NCBI RefSeq assembly: GCF_000737325.1
Contig: NZ_CP011125.1
Span: forward strand, 3,038,001 to 3,102,000
Length of the DNA: 64,000 nucleotides
DNA from: Sandaracinus amylolyticus
Lineage (GTDB): Bacteria; Myxococcota_A; Polyangia; Polyangiales; Sandaracinaceae
Direction: 5' to 3'
The notes beneath the pieces were generated by a model. That model worked only from the letters and a program-made list of their open reading frames with translations, ran no database searches and was not told the origin of the DNA. A program made the translations under genes and the position numbers. This document shows positions 24,167 through 63,927 of the stretch, in pieces (the first letter of the stretch is position 1; each line of letters begins with the position of its first letter).

Positions 24167-26596
<2,430 letters not shown>

Positions 26597-26704
26597 CCTT
26601 CTGCGAAGCCGGCCCGGGTCCCCCACCCGCCCGAAGCGCTCTCGACGCGTCGCGCCCGTCGGCGCGACACGTCTTCGCTGCTGATTCCGTAGCGCTCCGC
26701 GCAC

Positions 26705-26753
26705 GAGGACGAGCCGCCCGCTGCCGAACGCAGCGAGGCGGCTCGTTCCTTTT
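26705..26753 (+). terminator. Terminator between ahcY and the convergent gene
   Basis: ACGAGCCGCC pairs with GGCGGCTCGT, with an inner CGCTGC/GCAGCG stem and a GAAC-type loop, followed on the plus strand by TTCCTTTT. It separates ahcY from the convergent gene ending at 26756. Confidence 0.75.
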
Positions 26754-26755
26754 CG

Positions 26756-27808
26756 TCACTCGGTGATCGCGAGACCCGCCCAGCCGGCGAGCGAGCCACC
26801 GCTCACCGCTGCGACCGGGATCGCGCCGACGCGCGCTTCGAAGCCGAGCACCGCTGCGCCCACCTCGACGCCGAAGCGCAACGAGAGCGGGCCCACGACG
26901 CGCACGTCGAGCTCGCACACGCCGCCCAGCGCGACCACCGGGCCCGCGCCGTCGCCGGCCGGCGTCGCCGGGTCGTACGGTCGTCCCTCCGCCCACGCGA
27001 CGCCTGCCGCGACGCGACCGCCGAGCGTCAGCAGCACGTCGCGCCCGAGCGCTCCGGCCCACGCGAGCGCGATGCCCGCCGTCGCGAGTCCCACGTCGAT
27101 CTCGCCGAGGGGATCGAGCGCGACGCCGGCCACCACCTCCGCGTCGATGCGCACCACGAGCGGCGCGAGCGCCGCGACGTCGACCGAGAGCCGACCTCCG
27201 AGCGGCGCGATCCCTCCGCTCGGGAACGCGCGCACCACGAACGCCGCTGCGACGGCGGTGCTCGCCGCGCGCGTCTCGGGCTCGGCGGGCGCGACGGGCG
27301 GCGCAGGCTCGATCGGCGCGTGCTGCACGATCGGGGCGTCGTCCTGCGGGGCCTCCTCGATCGGCTCGGGTGCGGCGCTCGGCGCGGATCGCAGCAGCTC
27401 GGCGAGCGCGAGGGCCAGGGCACGCAGGCGCGCGCTCTCCGCGGTGCCGCTCACGTCGATGCGCTGCGCGACGAGCACGTTCCCCGCGAGGTCCTCGACG
27501 CTCACCGCGAATGCCGCCGCGCCGATCTCGCAGCGCTCGAGCGCGAGCTGCACCACCCGCACTTCTTCCGTGGGGGCACGCGAGATCGGCGCGCCGCGTC
27601 CGGCGAGACGCACCTCCTCGATGCCGTCGTCGTGGAGCTCGACCTCGAGCCGCGCGATCAGCGCATCGGTCTCGATCGGCGCGTCGGCGCACGGCTCCAC
27701 GTCGAGCAACAACGCCCGCGGCGCCTGCGCGCTCGCGAAGGGCGCGCCGAGCGTGATCGCGAGCGCGATGCTCACACCAGCGATGCACCGAGACCGTGTG
27801 GCGATCAC
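26756..27808 (-). CDS. Exported protein of unknown function in a sigma/FecR operon
   Basis: 350 residues from a GTG overlapping the previous stop (GTGA). A signal peptide (GVSIALAITLGAPFASAQA) precedes an alpha/beta domain (PRALLLDVEPCADAPIETDALIARLEVEL, VQLALERCEIGAAAFAVSVEDLAGNVL), a Pro/Ala/Glu linker at about 145-185 and a C-terminal half of repeated hydrophobic strands that could be a beta-barrel (LSVDVAALAPLVVRIDAEVVAGVAL, PLSLRFGVEVGAAVLGFEARVG). It is the third gene after the sigma factor and the FecR-TPR protein and may be their output or sensor. Confidence 0.7.
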   Translation of the reverse strand: MIATRSRCIAGVSIALAITLGAPFASAQAPRALLLDVEPCADAPIETDALIARLEVELHDDGIEEVRLAGRGAPISRAPTEEVRVVQLALERCEIGAAAFAVSVEDLAGNVLVAQRIDVSGTAESARLRALALALAELLRSAPSAAPEPIEEAPQDDAPIVQHAPIEPAPPVAPAEPETRAASTAVAAAFVVRAFPSGGIAPLGGRLSVDVAALAPLVVRIDAEVVAGVALDPLGEIDVGLATAGIALAWAGALGRDVLLTLGGRVAAGVAWAEGRPYDPATPAGDGAGPVVALGGVCELDVRVVGPLSLRFGVEVGAAVLGFEARVGAIPVAAVSGGSLAGWAGLAITE

Positions 27809-28932
27809 TCCGTCGTTCCGATGCGCCGCATGGCATCGATCTCGCGGCCGCTCGGATACTCCACGACGTACTGTGCAGCGACGGCCCGCGCGCCGTCGAG
27901 ATCGCCCAGCGCGCGACGCGCATGCGCGAGGCGAGCGAGCGCGTCGGCACGCAGCGCGTCGGGCACGTCGAGCGCGAGCGCGGTCTCGAACGCGCGCTCC
28001 GCGCGCTCGTACTGACCGAGGTTCGCCGCGAGACGACCGAGCGTGAACGCCGCGAGCGCGGCGCGCGGATCGCGCCGGTGACGGCGCACGACGTGCTCGA
28101 GCGGCACCATCGCGTCGGCGGTGTGACCCGACAGGCGCGCGACGTCGGCGATCAGGAAGAGATCGTCGACGCTCGCGCGCTCGCACGTGCTCTCGAGCCG
28201 CTCGCCGATCGCCGCATACGCGTCGTCCCACGCGCCGCGCTCGGCGGCCTCGCGCCACCGCGGCCGCGCAGGGGTGGTCGCGCGCGGTGCCGCGGCCTCG
28301 GGCGGAGGCGCTGCTTCGCGCTCCGGCTCGAATCGCGGCGGTGGAATCGGCGCCGGCGCGGCGACCTCGATGCGCTCGCCCGCGCCGAGCGTGCGCGCGC
28401 GATCCGGGACGTGCTCACCGCGCACCAGCACCGCGCCGCGCTCGACCTCGACCACGACGCGCTCCTCGGCGCGCGCGATCGTGAAGCGCGTCCCGACCAC
28501 GACGACGGTCGCGAGCCCGCATTCGATCGTCCAGCGACGCGGTCCGCCCGGCACCACGTCGAAGCGCGCGGTGCCCCGCTCGAGGAGCAGCACGAGATCA
28601 CGATCGTCGTTCTGCAGCCGGCGAAGCCGCGCCGACGCTTCGACCGTGATGATCGATCCGTCGTCGAGGCGGGTCACACCCGCGAGCAGCGCCGGCAAGG
28701 GCCCGCCGCCCTCGAGGCGCAGCGGCAGCGGCGCGCGCGCTTCGTGCACCTCGCCGCGCGGCATCGTGACGATCGCCAGCAGCGCGATCGCCGCCACCAC
28801 CACCGCGCTCGCCGCTGCGACGCGCCGTCGCGGCCGCGGTGCGCTCGCGCGGCGCACCATCGCCGCGACCTCGTGATCCTCGAACGGATCGCGGAGCACG
28901 CGCTTCACCGGGAGAGGAAGTCGCTTCGCCAC
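27805..28932 (-). CDS. FecR-domain membrane protein with TPR repeats
   Basis: 375 residues from a GTG 3 nt after the sigma-factor stop. A cytoplasmic N-terminus (1-37) is followed by one membrane helix (38-56, VAAASAVVVAAIALLAIV). Next comes a FecR domain (about 75-175: TRLDDGSIITVEASARLRRL, LLLERGTARFDVVPG, VVVVGTRFTIARAEERVVVEVERGAVLV, GERIEV), a Pro/Arg linker and C-terminal TPR-like repeats (AFTLGRLAANLGQYERAERAFETAL). FecR-type proteins act as anti-sigma or signal transducers for ECF sigma factors; this one is adjacent to its likely partner. Confidence 0.82.
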   Translation of the reverse strand: MAKRLPLPVKRVLRDPFEDHEVAAMVRRASAPRPRRRVAAASAVVVAAIALLAIVTMPRGEVHEARAPLPLRLEGGGPLPALLAGVTRLDDGSIITVEASARLRRLQNDDRDLVLLLERGTARFDVVPGGPRRWTIECGLATVVVVGTRFTIARAEERVVVEVERGAVLVRGEHVPDRARTLGAGERIEVAAPAPIPPPRFEPEREAAPPPEAAAPRATTPARPRWREAAERGAWDDAYAAIGERLESTCERASVDDLFLIADVARLSGHTADAMVPLEHVVRRHRRDPRAALAAFTLGRLAANLGQYERAERAFETALALDVPDALRADALARLAHARRALGDLDGARAVAAQYVVEYPSGREIDAMRRIGTTE

Positions 28933-28934
28933 GC

Positions 28935-29543
28935 TCAGTCCTCCTCCGGCTCGAACGACACGTGGGCGCGCACGTGCTCGTCCGCGCGCGCGATGCGCCG
29001 CTTCACCGTCGCGAGCGAGCACCCGCAGCTCCGCGCGACGTCTTCGAGCGGCATGTCCTCGACGTACCGCAGCGACCACGCGATGCGATCGGCGGCCGCG
29101 AGCTTCGCGAGCGCGCGGTCGAGCAGCGCGAGCTCGGCGCGCTGGTCCGGCGAGCACGCGTCGCTCGCGAGCGATGCGAGGCCGCCTTCGGGCTCTCCCG
29201 ACGCGAGCCCGAGCGCGCGCAGCAGCGTCCGCCGGCGAAACCGTCGGTGCACCTTGCGCACCGCGATCTGCATCATCCAGGAGCGCACCGCGTCGGGATC
29301 GCGCAGGTGCGGGAGCTCCGCGAGCGTCGCCTCGATCGTGTCCTGCACCACGTCCTCGGCGTCGAGCCGATCACCGAGCAGGCGCGCGACCGTCGCCGCG
29401 ACGTCGGCGAAGTGGCGGCGGACCAGCGCGTCCTCGGCCCAACGATCGCCGCCTCGCGCGCGCTGCACGAGCTCGCGATCGCTGAGCGCGTCCGCCGTCC
29501 GCAGCGTGACGACGCGCGGCGCGCGCAGGCGCGACGGCTTCAT
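28935..29543 (-). CDS. ECF-type RNA polymerase sigma factor
   Basis: 202 residues. Region 2 is seen in DALVRRHFADVAATVARLLGDRLDAEDVVQDTIEATL and VRSWMMQIAVRKVHRRFRRR. Region 4 is LAAADRIAWSLRYVEDMPLEDVARSCGCSLATVKRRIARADEHVR. The ATG at 29543 follows a GGAG ribosome-binding site by 6 nt. The downstream FecR-TPR gene is the probable regulator of its activity. The gene set is divergent from the haem-motif lipoprotein operon, with 97 bp between. Confidence 0.9.
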   Translation of the reverse strand: MKPSRLRAPRVVTLRTADALSDRELVQRARGGDRWAEDALVRRHFADVAATVARLLGDRLDAEDVVQDTIEATLAELPHLRDPDAVRSWMMQIAVRKVHRRFRRRTLLRALGLASGEPEGGLASLASDACSPDQRAELALLDRALAKLAAADRIAWSLRYVEDMPLEDVARSCGCSLATVKRRIARADEHVRAHVSFEPEED

Positions 29544-29640
29544 GCGCTCCACACCATGTTCATTCGGGACCACCAGCCTCGTGGATCGGCTCACGATGTT
29601 CCACGTGAGCCGTCCCGCGCGGCTGATGGTCCACAACGAG

Positions 29641-31155
29641 ATGCACCGCGTTCGCTCGATCTCGATGCTCTCGTGCCTGCTGTGCGTCGCCGTCGGCGCG
29701 TGCACACAGGGCGTCCGCGTCTTCGATCCCGACGGCGGCGACGGCCCCGATGCCTTCGCGCCGCCGCCCGACGCCGGCCCGTCGCGTCGCGTCTTCGTCG
29801 ACGACGGCATCGACCCGGACATCGAGCGTCGCTTCGACGAGGCGGGCGCGAGCCCCGCCGCGCCTCCGTCGCTCGTCTACCCCGAGGACGGCACGCTCAT
29901 CCCGCCGAACCTCCGTGGCGTCGACTTCCACTTCCATCCGAGCGGGTTCCAGACCTTCGAGATCACGCTCTCACAGCACGGCGAGCCCGCCGTCGTCGTG
30001 TACACGTGGTGCACGCCGATGGGCACCGGGTGCACGTTCCAGCCCGGCACCGAGATCTGGGAGGAGCTCGCGCGCCGCCGCCCCGACGGCCCGTTCGAGG
30101 TGCGCATCCGCGGCCTCGCCGGGGACCTCGCGAGCACGCCGTCGGAGCCGATCCACGTCGAGCTCGCCGACGAGCCGATCCTCGGCGGGATCTACTTCTG
30201 GACCGTCGAGCCTCCGTCGATCCGTCGCTACGAGTTCGGCCTCGCGCGCCGCAGCTCCGAGCTCTTCCTGAGCGGCGCCGAGGAGGGCAGCTGCATCGGC
30301 TGTCACGCGCTCTCGCGCGACGGCTCGCGCATCGCGGTCGGCGTCGCGGGGCCGAGCGGCGAGCCGGGCTCGCGCATCTACGACGTCGCGTCGCGCACGA
30401 TGGTGCTCGATGCGCCGGTGCCCGGCGATCTCGTCTCGTACGGCCCGACCGGCGACATGCTCGTGAGCGGCGCGATGACCGACGCGCCGGTCCGCTTCTT
30501 CTCCGCCGACGGCGCGCTCCTGCACGACCTCGGCGTCGTCGGTCGCGGCGGCGACTGGTCGGCGGACGGCGAGCACGCCGTGTACGCCGCGCACTTGCTG
30601 TCGGGCCCGTCCGAGCTCCACCTCGTCACGCGCGACGGTGACGCGTGGAGCGAGCCGCGCGTGATCCCGACGCCGACCACCGACGCCGAGGCGTTCCCCG
30701 CGTTCGCGCCCGACGCGCACTGGATCTCGTACGTCGGCACCGACACCGCGAACCCGACGCGCTCGCTGCTCGCGGTGCTGCACGTCGCGGACGAGCAGGT
30801 CGTGCACCTGCGCCGCGCCGCCGTCGACGACGACGTCACGTTCGCGCGATGGAACCCGAACCCGTACTCGCACCGCGGCCGGCGCATCTTCTGGCTCACG
30901 TTCTCGAGCCGCCGCGACTACGGCCTGCTCTCCGACGCGAACCGGCAGATCTGGATGGCCGCGTTCGATCCCGAGGCCGATCCCGAGGACCCGTCGCGCC
31001 CTGCGTTCCGCATCCCGGCGCAGACGTACGGCGTCGGCAACTTCATCGCGCAGTGGGCGCTCTCGGTGAGGCGGCAGCCGTGCGAGACCGACGCCGACTG
31101 CCCCGACGGCGAGGAGTGCCACGACGGCTTCTGCCGCCCGCGGGGGCCGGAATGA
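29641..31155 (+). CDS. TolB-like beta-propeller lipoprotein with a c-type haem motif
   Basis: 504 residues with this start; ATGs at 29626 and 29596 are alternatives. The lipobox ends at Cys21 (VAVGAC), then comes an Asp/Pro linker. One CxxCH motif is at 218-222 (SCIGCHALSRDG). The second half has TolB/WD40-like strands (SRIYDVASRTMVL, GDWSADGEHAVYAAHLL, FPAFAPDAHWISYVGTD, IFWLTFSSRRDYGL). It closes with a Cys-rich hook (CETDADCPDGEECHDGFC). The combination suggests a surface or periplasmic haem protein, perhaps in electron transfer, but the single haem site and lack of an electron partner leave this open. It is coupled to the next gene by an ATGA overlap. Confidence 0.75.
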   Translation: MHRVRSISMLSCLLCVAVGACTQGVRVFDPDGGDGPDAFAPPPDAGPSRRVFVDDGIDPDIERRFDEAGASPAAPPSLVYPEDGTLIPPNLRGVDFHFHPSGFQTFEITLSQHGEPAVVVYTWCTPMGTGCTFQPGTEIWEELARRRPDGPFEVRIRGLAGDLASTPSEPIHVELADEPILGGIYFWTVEPPSIRRYEFGLARRSSELFLSGAEEGSCIGCHALSRDGSRIAVGVAGPSGEPGSRIYDVASRTMVLDAPVPGDLVSYGPTGDMLVSGAMTDAPVRFFSADGALLHDLGVVGRGGDWSADGEHAVYAAHLLSGPSELHLVTRDGDAWSEPRVIPTPTTDAEAFPAFAPDAHWISYVGTDTANPTRSLLAVLHVADEQVVHLRRAAVDDDVTFARWNPNPYSHRGRRIFWLTFSSRRDYGLLSDANRQIWMAAFDPEADPEDPSRPAFRIPAQTYGVGNFIAQWALSVRRQPCETDADCPDGEECHDGFCRPRGPE

Positions 31156-31946
31156 TCACGCGCGCGATGCTCGTGCTCGTCGTGCTCGCCTCGGCGTGCA
31201 CGACGCGTGATCCCTCGCTCGACGACGACGCGGGCGTCGACGCCGCGACGAGCGATGCGGGACCGCCCGACGCCGCGCCCGTCGACGCGCCGATCTCGCG
31301 CGCGCGATGCGACGAGGACGGCGAGGCGTGCTGCGCCGACGGACGCTGCGGCGGCAACCTCCGCTGCGAGGCGGGCATGTGCACGCTCCGCGGATGCGGC
31401 GCGATCGACGCGCCGTGCTGCGAGCGCGACCTCTGCTCGCGCGGCGCGGTGTGCGAGGAGGGGACGTGCGTGATCGCGCCGTGCGGCGTCGTCGCGGGCG
31501 CGGCGTGCTGCGAGGCCGATCCCGCGTGCGAGGGCACGCTCGAGTGCATCGACGGCACCTGTGATCCGTGCGGCGCGTCGGGACAGGCGTGCTGTCCCGA
31601 GCGCGGCTGCGACGACGGGCTCGAGTGCCTCGGCGCGTTCTGCGGTCCGCCTCCGCCGTGCGGCGAGATCGGCGCGCTCTGCTGCGACGAGGAGCCGCGA
31701 TGCGCGTCCGGCTCGGGCTGCCGTCCGATCGCGGGCGAGGAACGATGCCTGTCCGGGCCGACGTGCGGCGCCGAGGGCGGCGCGTGCTGCGACGGAGACG
31801 TCGAGTGCGCGCCCGGCTTGGTGTGCGTGCCCGAGGGGCAGTGCGTGCGCTGCGGTCAGCTCGACACGTTCTGCTGCGATCCGCCGCTCGCGTGCGGGCC
31901 CGGGCTCGAGTGCAGCCCGGAGGGGACCTGTCGCTTCGCCCCGTGA
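31152..31946 (+). CDS. Cysteine-rich lipoprotein with seven CC modules
   Basis: 264 residues. The lipobox is LASAC (Cys16), followed by an Asp/Ala linker. From residue 50 the chain is a series of about seven units of 25-40 residues, each with a CC pair and the pattern C-G-x-x-G-x-x-CC followed by two or three more Cys (GEACCADGRCGGNLRCEAGMC; GQACCPERGCDDGLECLGAFC). This resembles the small disulfide-rich domains of eukaryotic secreted proteins and of some myxobacterial surface proteins. It should be heavily disulfide-bonded. No function is known. It is translated together with the haem-motif lipoprotein, which ends in a similar Cys hook. Confidence 0.75.
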   Translation: MITRAMLVLVVLASACTTRDPSLDDDAGVDAATSDAGPPDAAPVDAPISRARCDEDGEACCADGRCGGNLRCEAGMCTLRGCGAIDAPCCERDLCSRGAVCEEGTCVIAPCGVVAGAACCEADPACEGTLECIDGTCDPCGASGQACCPERGCDDGLECLGAFCGPPPPCGEIGALCCDEEPRCASGSGCRPIAGEERCLSGPTCGAEGGACCDGDVECAPGLVCVPEGQCVRCGQLDTFCCDPPLACGPGLECSPEGTCRFAP

Positions 31947-32025
31947 GGGCGACGTCAACCCGAGCGGAACGCTCCGGCGAGCGCGGATTTCCGCGCGTGG
32001 ATCGACGATCGGGTACAACCAGTAC

Positions 32026-32814
32026 GTGACCCGCGTCGTCGCACCCATCGTGCTCGCGGTCGTCGCCACGGCGGCGCCCTTCGTCGCCCACGCACAGCCA
32101 CGCACGGTGCGCGACCCCGACGTCGCCGACGCGGTGATCGCGATCGAGGCGCCCTCGGGCGCGCTCGGCGCGGACGAGCTCGAGACCGGGCTGCGCGTGC
32201 TCCTCGCGCCGATCAGCGCGTGCCTGCGGGAGCGGCCGACCGATCCGGCGGACATCGTCGTCGCGGTCGACGTGAGCGCGCGCGGGCGCGCGACGCCGCG
32301 CATCACGAGCGAGCTCACGAGCAGCCAGCGCCGGTTCGCGCGGTGCCTCACGCGCGCGTTCGGTGCGGCGCGCTTCCCCGAGCGCGACGCGAGCACGCGC
32401 GCCGTGGTGCACGCGCTGGTCGGCACGCCGACGCCGAGGATCGCGGGCGCGACCGAGCCTGCGGCGCCGACACCCACGCCGTCTCCTCCGGTCGCGGCGC
32501 CCTCGCAGCCGCCGACCGAGGAAGAGCTGCACGCGCGCGCGCTCGCCAGCGTGCAGGCCGCGCTCGCCGCGCACCCCGACGCGCTCGGCGCGTGCGCGCG
32601 CCGCGCCGCGGTGCAAGCACCGGGACGCGTGTGGGTGCGCGTCACGTTCCCGAGCGCGAGCGGCGCGCCGTCGATCGACATCGTGCGCAGCGACGTCGAG
32701 AGCGCGGCGCTGACGAGCTGTGTCGCCGAGACGATGCGCGGCTGGACCTACGAGAGCCCGGGCGCCGGCGCGAACGTCGTGCTGCCGATCGAGATCACGC
32801 GCCCGGCGCGCTGA
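32026..32814 (+). CDS. Exported protein with two TonB-C/AgmX-like domains
   Basis: 262 residues from a GTG. A signal peptide (IVLAVVATAAPFVAHAQP) is followed by two related units: about 60-135 (ISACLRERP ... ARCLTRAFGAARFPE) and about 175-262 (LGACARRAA ... TSCVAETMRGWTYESPG), joined by a Pro/Thr linker. Each unit has two Cys separated by about 40 residues, as in the TonB C-terminal-like domain found in many myxobacterial motility and envelope proteins. Function unknown. It follows the lipoprotein pair by 79 bp. Confidence 0.72.
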   Translation: MTRVVAPIVLAVVATAAPFVAHAQPRTVRDPDVADAVIAIEAPSGALGADELETGLRVLLAPISACLRERPTDPADIVVAVDVSARGRATPRITSELTSSQRRFARCLTRAFGAARFPERDASTRAVVHALVGTPTPRIAGATEPAAPTPTPSPPVAAPSQPPTEEELHARALASVQAALAAHPDALGACARRAAVQAPGRVWVRVTFPSASGAPSIDIVRSDVESAALTSCVAETMRGWTYESPGAGANVVLPIEITRPAR

Positions 32815-32840
32815 CGCCCAGGGCTCGCGGCGGGCGGCAT

Positions 32841-32995
32841 GTCTCGAGGCCACACGGTCTCTGGGTTGTACTGACCTGCGCTCTTCGGTGTGCACTCGCT
32901 CCAGGTTCGCGCCTTCGGCGCGAACGTCGCTCTGCTGGCTTCCAAGGGTCTCGGCGTTCGGGCCGCTCGTGGTGGGGTTGCTTTGCGGTGGGCGC
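32841..32995 (+). repeat. Module copy A
   Basis: Begins GTCTCGAGGCCACACGGTCT and ends at GGTTGCTTTGCGGTGGGC. It contains the hairpin GTTCGCGCC-TTC-GGCGCGAAC at 32905-32925, a 9-bp perfect stem whose loop reads C(TTCG)G, the most stable RNA tetraloop class. Confidence 0.85.
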
Positions 32996-33067
32996 CTTCT
33001 CAGTCCCCGCGGAGTCTCTCTCGGTAGCTCGTGCCGAGTCCCCGCGGCGTCGCTTGCGGTGGAGTTG

Positions 33068-33214
33068 GTCTCGAGGACGCACGGTCTTTGCGTCGTACTG
33101 ACCGTGTGGCTTCGGTGTGCACTCGCTCCAGGTTCGCGCCGTTGGCGCGAACGTCGCTCTGCTGGTTTCAAAGGGTCTCGACCTTCGGGCCGCTCGTGGT
33201 GGGGTTGCTTCGCG
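33068..33214 (+). repeat. Module copy B
   Basis: Same order of blocks as copy A, and clearly similar over its whole length. The hairpin stem is unchanged (33132-33152), but the loop reads GTT instead of TTC, so only the loop has drifted. The block GGGCCGCTCGTGGTGGGGTT is identical in A and B. Confidence 0.85.
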
Positions 33215-33410
33215 AGCGCGGTGTGCCGAGTCCCCGCGGAGTCTCTCTCGGGGGCGCGATCTCGAGTCTCCGCGGAGTCGTTCTCGGTGGGCGTGATCTC
33301 GAGGACACGCGCTCTTGATGCTGCCAGGACTCGGCAGACCGCCATCGCGAGCGACGCTGCGGGGACTCGGCAACACGCCGCCGAAAGAGCCTCTGCGGGG
33401 ACTCGAGATC

Positions 33411-33565
33411 GCGCCCACCGCGAAGCAACCCCACCACGAGCGGCCCGCTTGCCGAGACTCAAACGAAACAGCGGAGCGACGTTCGCGCCGAAGGCGCGAA
33501 CCTGGAGCGAGCGCACACCGAAGCCGGACGGTCAGCACGACCCAGAGACCGTGCGTTCTCGCGAG
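33411..33565 (-). repeat. Module copy C (inverted)
   Basis: Read on the minus strand it matches copies A and B from the ACGCACGGTCTCTGGGTCGT start to the GGGTTGCTTCGCGGTGGGCG end. The hairpin stem at 33481-33500 is again perfect with the TTC loop (GAA on the plus strand). Confidence 0.85.
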
Positions 33566-33671
33566 AGCGTCACCGTGAGCGATGCTGCGGGGACTCGGCA
33601 CGCCGCGGTCGCGAGCGATGCTGCGGGGACTCGGCAACACGCCCCCGAAAGAGACTCTGCGGGACCGAGAT

Positions 33672-33826
33672 CGCGCCCACCGCGAAGCAACCCCACCGCG
33701 AGCGGCCCGCTCGACGAGAGCCAAACGAACCAGCGGAGCGACGTTCGCGCCGAAGGCGCGAACCTGGAGCGAGCGCACACCGAAGCCGCGCGGTCAGCAC
33801 GACCCAAAGACCGTGCGTTCTCGCGA
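33672..33826 (-). repeat. Module copy D (inverted)
   Basis: Nearly the same as copy C; the first 26 bases (plus strand, CGCGCCCACCGCGAAGCAAC onward) and the hairpin block are identical. The least similar stretch is the 25 bp between the GGGCCGC block and the hairpin, as in the other copies. Confidence 0.85.
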
Positions 33827-33864
33827 CGGCGCCCACGTCCACGGCCCCATTGCCCCCATTGCAG

Positions 33865-33936
33865 TCGCTGGACAACAGATCTCTGTTGCCGATCGCTAAC
33901 GTTAGCGATCCGGAACAGATCTCTGTTGCCCAGCGA
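33865..33936. repeat. 72-bp imperfect palindrome
   Basis: Two 36-nt halves pair at 31 of 36 positions. The centre is a perfect 20-bp palindrome, GATCGCTAACGTTAGCGATC (33891-33910). Each flank carries another small palindrome (CAACAGA-TC-TCTGTTG on the left, the same without its first bases on the right), and TCGCTGG/CCAGCGA closes the ends. It is less G/C-rich than its surroundings. It could be a protein-binding site, a recombination or replication-termination site, or an element end. Confidence 0.9.
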
Positions 33937-34242
33937 CAACGTTACGCCCTCCCGCACGTCGCGAGGTCCCGCTTCGACAGCGATACCGGTTCCGCGACCT
34001 CCGGCTCTCGGTCGGCGACATCGTCAGCGTCGCTGGACACCGGCCTCTCCGAGAACGCTACGGCTGACGGTGCCTCCACTGCCCGCTCTCCGCGGCTCGC
34101 GCTCGCTCTCGATCGCGAACAACACGTCTTCGACGCAACGCCTTGATCGAGGCTCCGATGAGCACCTCGTCCGCGCGACGCGCCTCCCGAGCGGTCGCGC
34201 TCTCAGCCCGGGCTCTCCGGGAGAAAAAGTCGAGGCGTTCCC
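33937..34242. other. Intergenic region after the palindrome
   Basis: 306 bp without a supported gene. A further GTCGCTGGACA copy of the palindrome end occurs at about 34031-34041. A short GCCCGGGCTCTCCGGGAG hairpin precedes the next start. The promoter of the next gene should lie here. Confidence 0.5.
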
Positions 34243-35055
34243 GTGTCCGAGATCATCTTCAACCAGCACGGCGGGCCTCCGAAGGTGCCCGCGCAGAACG
34301 CGAAGCCGCTCTGGCGTCTTCTCGTCAACCAGGCGCCCTCCGACCTCACCCGCGAAGAGCGCGAGCTCCTCGACCGTGTGGGCGGTCATGCGGCGCAGCT
34401 CGAGGCCGCGCTCAAGCAGCGCGACGGGATGGGCGGCGTGCGCGACGCCTTCCTCGACTTCGTGAACGGCTGGAGCGCGGTGTACGGCGCGCTCGACGCG
34501 GTGAGCCGCATCCCGGCGTCGGCGAGCACCAAGGGCGCGCGGGCGGCGAAGCTCGTCGCGAGCACGTTCCCCGACGCGCTCGGGTTCACGCGCTTCGCGG
34601 CGCCGCAGGCGTGGGCACACGGTGACCGCCTGCTGTCGCGCATCGCGGAGAGCGGCGCCGATCGTCAGATCGACGAGCTGATCGGCCCCGATCACCTCAA
34701 GGCGGCGAAGAAGGTCACGAGCGCGCTCGGTGAGCTCATCGGCGCAGGCCGCACGCCGATCGAGATCCCCGACCCGACCGCGGTGCAGAACCTGCTCGGC
34801 AAATTCCAGCGCGCGGTCGGCCGCTACAGCCGCCTGATGCTCGCGAAGGTCGACGAGGAGGACCCGCGCAGCGTCGAGCGCTTCCGCAAGGCGGTCGCGG
34901 TCCCCGTCGATCGCTACCGCTCGACGCGCACGACGCGCGAGGACGACGGCGAGGTCGAGCCGACGGATCCGAGCGAGCCGTCGGATCCGAGCGAGCCCAA
35001 GACGCCGGTGATCGATCCGACGGGGCCGAACGGGCCGTTCCTCTCCGAGACGTGA
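34243..35055 (+). CDS. Hypothetical soluble protein with a Pro/Asp/Ser tail
   Basis: 270 residues from a GTG; no better start is visible. No signal peptide or membrane segment. Residues 1-215 are mixed helical (LWRLLVNQAPSDLTREERELLDRVGGHAAQLEAALKQ, DQIDELIGPDHLKAAKKVTSALGELI). The last 45 residues are a repeat-like tail (DPSEPSDPSEPKTPVIDPTGPNGPF). I do not recognise the family. It is expressed alone, between the repeat region and a strong terminator. Confidence 0.6.
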   Translation: MSEIIFNQHGGPPKVPAQNAKPLWRLLVNQAPSDLTREERELLDRVGGHAAQLEAALKQRDGMGGVRDAFLDFVNGWSAVYGALDAVSRIPASASTKGARAAKLVASTFPDALGFTRFAAPQAWAHGDRLLSRIAESGADRQIDELIGPDHLKAAKKVTSALGELIGAGRTPIEIPDPTAVQNLLGKFQRAVGRYSRLMLAKVDEEDPRSVERFRKAVAVPVDRYRSTRTTREDDGEVEPTDPSEPSDPSEPKTPVIDPTGPNGPFLSET

Positions 35056-62942: not shown

Positions 62943-63927
62943 CGGTACCGCGGTTCTGCCGCCTCGCTGGGTTGGGGTGAGATGGCTCGCGACCGGTCCG
63001 CGCTTCGCCGCGGCCCGGACGCTCGCGGGTAGCATCGCGCTCCGCGCGTGTGCGCGCTGCGCGCGGGAATGGGAGCGCGATGCGCGAAGATGGGAACGCG
63101 CTGCGCGCGGGTGCAGGTTCCGGAAATTGTGAGCCGGGTTTTCCAGAAACTCTGAGCGCCTCGGTCTCGTCCTGATCGTCGTCCAAGGCGTTGTCTTCCG
63201 CCAAGTGCTTGGTGCGGATCGACGGGCCGTCGAGCTTGAGCAGGCGGCCTCTGTCGAGGATTCGATCGACGATGGCCTCGGCGAGGTCGTCGTCGTGCAA
63301 CACGGGTCCCCAGCGCTTCGGGTGCTTGTTGGTCGTGAAGACCATCGCGCGCTTCTTGATGTGTCGCTCGTTGACGACGTGGAAGAGCACGTTCGCGGCG
63401 TCATCGCCGTACGCGAGATAGCCGACCTCGTCGACGACGAGCACGTGCGGCTTCACGTAGCGCGCGAGCGCCTCGCGCAGCCGTCCCTCTCGGCTCGCGC
63501 ACGAGAGGTCGTCGATGAGCTCCGCGCAGTTCGCGAAGAGCGCGTCGAAGCCGTTCTGCATCGCGCGGTATGCGAGCGAGATCGCGAGGTGCGTCTTTCC
63601 GCGTCCGGTCTTGCCGAAGAGGATGACCGAGTTGCCCTCGGTCACGAAGTCGGGCGAGAGCAGCGAGCCGATGGTCGTCAGGCGCAGCGTCGACTGATAC
63701 GAGAAGTCGAACTCCTCGACGGTGCGCAAGAAGGGCAGCTCCGCGGCGCGCACCGCGCGCATCAAGCGCGTGCCGCGACGATGCGCGATCTCCTCGCTGA
63801 AGATCGTCTGAAGCAGCTGCTCGTACGACCACTCTTCGGTCTCGGCGCGGCGCACGAGGTCACGCCAGACGCGACGCGTGTTCGCGAGCGACAGACGCTT
63901 GAGCAGCGGGTCGAGGTCGCTGCTCAT
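62803..63927 (-). CDS. istB: IS21-family helper ATPase IstB, extended C-terminus
   Basis: 374 residues; typical IstB has about 250. Walker A is GKTGRGKT (105-112) and Walker B is VLVVDEVGYL; EEFDFSYQ before them is family-typical. IstB helps the transposase IstA choose target DNA. From about residue 260 the sequence reads through the terminal repeats at 63118-63158 into low-complexity flanking DNA, so the last 110 residues are probably not part of the original protein. It starts at the ATG overlapping the istA stop (ATGA). Confidence 0.88.
   Translation of the reverse strand: MSSDLDPLLKRLSLANTRRVWRDLVRRAETEEWSYEQLLQTIFSEEIAHRRGTRLMRAVRAAELPFLRTVEEFDFSYQSTLRLTTIGSLLSPDFVTEGNSVILFGKTGRGKTHLAISLAYRAMQNGFDALFANCAELIDDLSCASREGRLREALARYVKPHVLVVDEVGYLAYGDDAANVLFHVVNERHIKKRAMVFTTNKHPKRWGPVLHDDDLAEAIVDRILDRGRLLKLDGPSIRTKHLAEDNALDDDQDETEALRVSGKPGSQFPEPAPARSAFPSSRIALPFPRAARTRAERDATRERPGRGEARTGREPSHPNPARRQNRGTGRGVEGPTPSCDGGRRGRPETDRSIAAEREARAAMRPPRPDARALS
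63118..63158. repeat. IS21-type terminal repeat pair
   Basis: TTCCGGAAATTGTGAGCC (63118-63135) and TTCCAGAAACTCTGAGCG (63141-63158) match at 14 of 18 positions, 23 bp apart. Multiple direct repeats at the ends are a hallmark of IS21 elements and serve as transposase sites. Confidence 0.7.

Follow-up and report, generated by a model that had tools for sequence, protein, structure and literature searches.

A lineage-restricted family of interspersed noncoding repeats with a conserved 23-nt box in two Sandaracinus genomes

The window analyzed here is a 64,000-nucleotide stretch of DNA, positions 3,038,001 to 3,102,000 of the single 10,327,335-bp chromosome of Sandaracinus amylolyticus (the host genome, G000). 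We propose, with a probability of about one-half, that an array of repeated modules within it is one locus of a noncoding, lineage-restricted BIME/ERIC-like repeat family carrying a putative recognized box. The module is best read as a new noncoding family, interspersed and so far present in two Sandaracinus genomes, the second being that of a sister species (G002).

RESULTS

Layout of the array. The first-pass annotation of this DNA had described four modules, two copies per strand and tail to tail, with degenerate 36-bp subrepeats between them and no believable gene around them. This layout is real. The direct module pairs are 84% and 92% identical, the inverted pairs show 82 to 86% complementarity across 146 to 167 nt, which far exceeds chance, the subrepeats have a spacing of 36, and a codon-usage gene finder predicted zero genes in 32814-34243. 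The array ends near 33840 and not at 33864, where a separate palindrome begins. Modules are approximately 150 to 190 bp long, and the features are as follows (window coordinates).

32026-32814, + strand: upstream gene, 262 aa, no Pfam match; the array follows its 3' end
32841-33031, + strand: module copy m1, subfamily I
32905-32925, + strand: 9-bp hairpin of m1, 3-nt loop
32960-32982, + strand: box 1 of m1, GGGCCGCTCGTGGTGGGGTTGCT
33035-33062, + strand: 36-bp-type subrepeat in the m1/m2 spacer
33068-33258, + strand: module copy m2, subfamily I, GTT loop
33132-33152: 9-bp hairpin of m2, 3-nt loop
33187-33209, + strand: box 1 of m2
33227-33372, no strand: inverted center of the array, degenerate 36-bp subrepeats (CTCGAG...GTCCCCGC...) face to face
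33404-33576, - strand: module copy m3, subfamily I
33424-33446, - strand: box 1 of m3
33481-33501: 9-bp hairpin of m3, 3-nt loop
33571-33640, - strand: 36-bp-type subrepeats in the m3/m4 spacer
33666-33838, - strand: module copy m4, subfamily I
33686-33708, - strand: box 1 of m4, one change
33743-33763: 9-bp hairpin of m4, 3-nt loop
34243-35055, + strand: downstream gene, 270 aa, no Pfam match

The CTTCGGTG block of m1 begins 69 bp past the stop of the upstream gene. Just past the array, at 33864-33944, lies a near-perfect palindrome with 37-nt arms and a 40-bp repeat, AACAGATCTCTGTTGCC...GCTAACGTTAGC. The host genome has its motif at three loci, two of which adjoin modules, and the sister species lacks it.

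Copies and distribution of the family. Occurrence in the window alone would have counted against the first-pass reading, and blastn, box, and profile searches place the module in two genomes. With m3 as the query, blastn retrieved 26 pieces from the host genome, spread over 13 places. The core box AAGCAACCCCACCACGAGCGG, the reverse strand of box 1, occurs 23 times at 11 host loci with at most two mismatches; matches with three mismatches elsewhere in the host number four, no more than in the reversed control. A twelfth host locus, at 2.535 Mb, harbors a partial module copy without an intact box. In the sister species, boxes with no more than one mismatch number 20, and the profile recovers about 25 copies, at 16 loci. 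No box was found in the third Sandaracinus genome (G001) or in 54 relatives (7 of the same family and 47 of the same order). When the sequence-only profile R1 was run against 38 genomes, true copies reached E values down to 1e-24 and noise lay at approximately 1e-3; nothing among these genomes stood clearly above noise outside the two Sandaracinus species. Exact scans of about 85,000 species genomes, a set that may omit the window's own or near genomes, gave zero matches. The literature searched held no account of interspersed repeats in Sandaracinus and nothing specific for myxobacterial intergenic repeats.

Two subfamilies can be distinguished. Subfamily I (the window and nine other loci among those retrieved) carries GTKCGCGC hairpins, and subfamily II has a different GC-rich central hairpin (25 aligned copies); most copies in the family carry a central hairpin unlike that of the window. 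In the copy tree, copies from the same locus tend to cluster, as would be expected from local duplication or conversion. The host module loci span 2.39 to 7.72 Mb, and none lies within about 2.1 Mb of dnaA, at 9.82 Mb. Separate from this main dnaA, a Bac_DnaA-type AAA domain match is present in the window (63313-63636, - strand; E = 1.8e-10).

A second dispersed, hairpin-rich repeat of about 100 bp, with a CCCGACCGGCAAAGCCGGATCGGG core, gave 26 matches in the host and 50 in the sister species (e.g., L097 8280-8382, L099 18380-18460, L102 10508-10608, and L104 5072-5172), whereas neither G001 nor the window has any.

Position relative to genes. Gene edges were taken from simple codon-model gene calls. 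When copies are read with the CTTCGGTG end first, a same-strand gene 3' end precedes every one of the 20 copies for which any gene edge lies 150 bp or less upstream, although orthologous pairs are among these 20 and orthologous loci do not count as independent. The distance from stop codon to module is 15 to 62 bp in 14 of them. Gaps that contain modules are codirectional in 17 cases, convergent in 11, and divergent in 1, compared with 49, 10, and 21 control gaps at the same loci. Within the codirectional gaps the bias in orientation is only modest, with about seven loci for it, one against, and the window mixed. Exceptions to the 3'-end rule are the inverted half of the window array, the 6.31-Mb locus, and locus L087. 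The genes beside modules are unrelated, encoding a PP-loop protein, an amino acid permease, a histone-deacetylase-like protein, a polyprenyl synthetase, and a sigma-54 activator. A paralogous family of about 220 aa without an above-cutoff Pfam match also adjoins modules at three separate loci; its members are at L036 5177-5845, L082 6301-6969, L087 5385-6050, L028 5002-5742, and L092 4909-5571.

Genes of the 23S_rRNA_IVP type (PF05635, four-helix bundle) lie between modules at 6.31 and 6.40 Mb in the host and at 1.198 Mb in the sister species. An IVP element ending in modules was considered and rejected, as most IVP genes are elsewhere and have hexamer-repeat flanks; the association looks like one insertion that was copied locally. 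IVP genes of both genomes are bracketed by long inverted repeats of up to 307 bp, mostly arrays of 6-bp units, such as GGCGTC on one side and its complement on the opposite side. Such a flanking inverted repeat was found at 14 of 20 IVP loci in G000 and G002 (L116-L122, L124, L125, L126, L129-L131, and L133) versus 1 of 150 random stretches, and at 3 of 11 testable IVP loci in other genomes of the order. In this flanking arrangement the loci resemble 23S rRNA intervening sequences, which have a stem-loop architecture (PMC4990558). In G012 and G040, of the same order, IVP genes repeatedly form pairs placed tail to tail with about 45 bp between them, and each genome has several such copies (e.g., G012:C6 420045-420338, + strand, and 420383-420679, - strand), as if the inverted pair were a mobile unit.

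Sequence constraint on box 1. On the copy tree, box 1 has undergone 9 changes in its 23 sites versus 57 expected, a count as low as this being reached by only 1 of 100,000 randomly drawn site sets. Between ortholog pairs, box 1 differs at 2 of 229 positions versus 73 of 832 in the remaining module core (Fisher P = 3e-6). The blocks GGCTTCGGTGTGCAC and CTCGAGTCCCCGC also changed less than average on the copy tree. The conservation of box 1 speaks against neutral decay after the two species separated, but localized gene conversion without selection could also hold the box uniform. The data support a constraint that acts at the level of sequence, on a 23-nt box that the first-pass annotation had not singled out, and are best read as evolution keeping a short box rather than an RNA fold.

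Hairpin and RNA structure. Selection on structure had been proposed from a perfect 9-bp stem with a UUCG loop. All four window copies have the stem, GTTCGCGCC/GGCGCGAAC. The tetraloop was not confirmed: it is impossible with the 9-bp stem because positions 1 to 9 pair with positions 13 to 21 and close a 3-nt TTC loop (GTT in m2), and a c(UUCG)g tetraloop would need a register shift that sets C8 opposite C15.

Pairing in the hairpin is perfect in 13 distinct subfamily I sequences. Seven of its eight pairs are invariant; at the remaining one, the four window copies have U-A where the other nine distinct sequences have G-C, and one inserted C-G pair also sets the window copies apart from those nine. 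Compensation within the stem, which the first reading would predict, is thus seen once, and because all four window copies share the doubly changed pair it represents a single event. The covariation score of the hairpin is above that of shuffles, yet it derives from this one event common to four related copies, and the covariation terms are +0.27, 0, and -0.23. Template-switch correction can restore perfect palindromes without selection, and a palindrome-correcting mutation of this kind could yield the doubly changed pair. Among the pairs predicted by RNAalifold, 1 of 39 in subfamily I and 0 of 38 in subfamily II are changed on both sides. Fold z-scores for the two strands of m2 are 0.14 and -1.41, and the Rfam search gave no meaningful match, only subthreshold miRNA noise. 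Box 1 is able to pair with a CCCCGC block. Selection on RNA structure finds no support in these results, and the hairpin is probably a variable accessory rather than the conserved feature.

Orthology and turnover. For 11 of the host loci, the sister species has a module locus at the orthologous place, with flank identity mostly 88 to 97%. Copy number and orientation at these loci are unlike between the two species, and the arrays therefore turn over, with copies gained, lost, and inverted locally. The window array, 2+2 inverted, corresponds to three direct copies plus an extra fragment at the orthologous L088. There, about 6 kb of genes separate the 262-aa gene from its array; in the window, a synteny break at 26.6 to 32.1 kb (26593-32070) contains several genes without a counterpart in the compared G002 segment.

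At L089 of the sister species, roughly 250 bp comprising a 36-bp unit, a module, and another 36-bp unit are absent from the orthologous host site (L098). A 3-bp TCG is found at both junctions, the ends are not inverted repeats, and both insertion and deletion are compatible with the site. At L095, a gene and its module are missing in the host. The host appears to have undergone a deletion, as it retains a subrepeat-like tail; an attC-like cassette exchange was rejected on the same grounds. L031 and L087 each have about 200 bp of unrelated sequence in the other species.

DISCUSSION

Our results suggest that box 1 may be a recognized nucleic-acid site, either protein bound or met by an RNA partner at the 3' end of a transcript, and that it would be kept in every copy while unequal recombination among 36-bp subrepeats and modules creates, inverts, and loses copies. 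A more far-reaching proposal is that the module is an orientation-locked 3'-untranslated-region (3'-UTR) element whose candidate 23-nt recognition box has spread to unrelated gene ends and is still selected, in which case a myxobacterium would have a dispersed regulon that acts post-transcriptionally; we consider this unlikely.

The main rival reading, doubtful in our view but to be taken seriously, is that the copies are remnants of a nonautonomous, MITE- or REP-like transposable element whose transposase, now lost or unidentified, recognized box 1 and the ends and had a preference for the spacer that follows a stop codon. The dispersal of copies belonging to two subfamilies, the clean presence/absence polymorphism between L089 and L098 with TCG at both junctions, and the orientation preference at gene ends are consistent with this. 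However, L089 shows neither terminal inverted repeats nor a convincing target duplication, its TCG repeats are equally explained by microhomology deletion, and the genus has no Y1 (RAYT-type) transposase. In addition, 11 loci are older than the species split, and dead insertions of that age would differ at more than the 2 of 229 box 1 positions observed. Of the ideas in the first-pass annotation, an old nonautonomous element comes nearest to the repeat family that we favor.

A structured RNA family, acting as a cis-regulatory 3'-UTR RNA or small RNA via the hairpin, seems improbable. Perfect pairing across 13 sequences with one doubly changed pair, the location at gene 3' ends, and the possible pairing of box 1 with the CCCCGC block agree with it, but covariation amounts to one event with terms around zero, the fold z-scores and the Rfam search lend it no support, and subfamily II has another central hairpin instead. 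Little credence can be given to a chromosome-organizing or nucleoid-protein site of the matS, SIMC, or BIME-gyrase type with box 1 as the putative protein site: although the sites are repeated, the box is conserved by sequence only, and the host loci keep away from dnaA, there are only about 12 loci per 10.3 Mb, replication strand polarity is absent, L094 of the sister species, at 8.45 Mb, lies close to the inferred origin, and the positional bias may merely mirror a variable chromosome half. A protein-coding remnant is almost certainly the wrong explanation; the array does have long overlapping open reading frames, but the codon model predicts no gene, and 1- and 2-nt indels separate the conserved blocks in the alignments of both subfamilies.

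The repeat family that we favor can be traced locus by locus in two species, so that decay, gain, and selection become separable, and box 1 offers binding tests a concrete target. The window array also illustrates that RNA-level selection is not evidenced by the perfect retention of a hairpin among four neighboring copies.

Several known repeat systems resemble the Sandaracinus module. Integron attC sites lie just past stop codons in a fixed orientation and bear hairpins, and the modules are likewise oriented, hairpin bearing, and shortly after stop codons. On reading, however, they show no RYYYAAC/GTTRRRY core pair, and their upstream genes are unrelated and ordinary and form no cassette array. 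With MITEs the module shares its short, noncoding, dispersed nature and presence/absence polymorphism between species; it differs at L089, the sole clean site, where terminal inverted repeats are lacking and no target duplication is clear. ERIC is one long imperfect palindrome, which the module is not, although by general description it is similar to ERIC-like repeats of about 100 to 200 bp in size, low-to-moderate copy number, intergenic location, and occurrence in few related species. REP/BIME systems are built on a palindromic unit of 20 to 40 bp, usually in more than 100 copies, and are associated with RAYT transposases (PMC2817692, PMC3733652). RAYT (Y1_Tnp, PF01797) was found in 0 of 3 Sandaracinus genomes, with the control search positive in 5 of 14 known genomes, including Escherichia coli; a RAYT-driven REP was rejected on this result. 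The Sandaracinus module is also longer (about 150 to 190 bp) and less numerous (about 25 copies in each of the two species), and its conserved unit is the nonpalindromic box 1 within a module of about 150 bp, the hairpin varying by subfamily. In other respects the likeness to BIME/REP is close: the copies are intergenic and dispersed, with several per site and a small hairpin, and the alternating orientation of BIME clusters has a parallel in the 2+2 inverted array of the window, the other module loci being direct.
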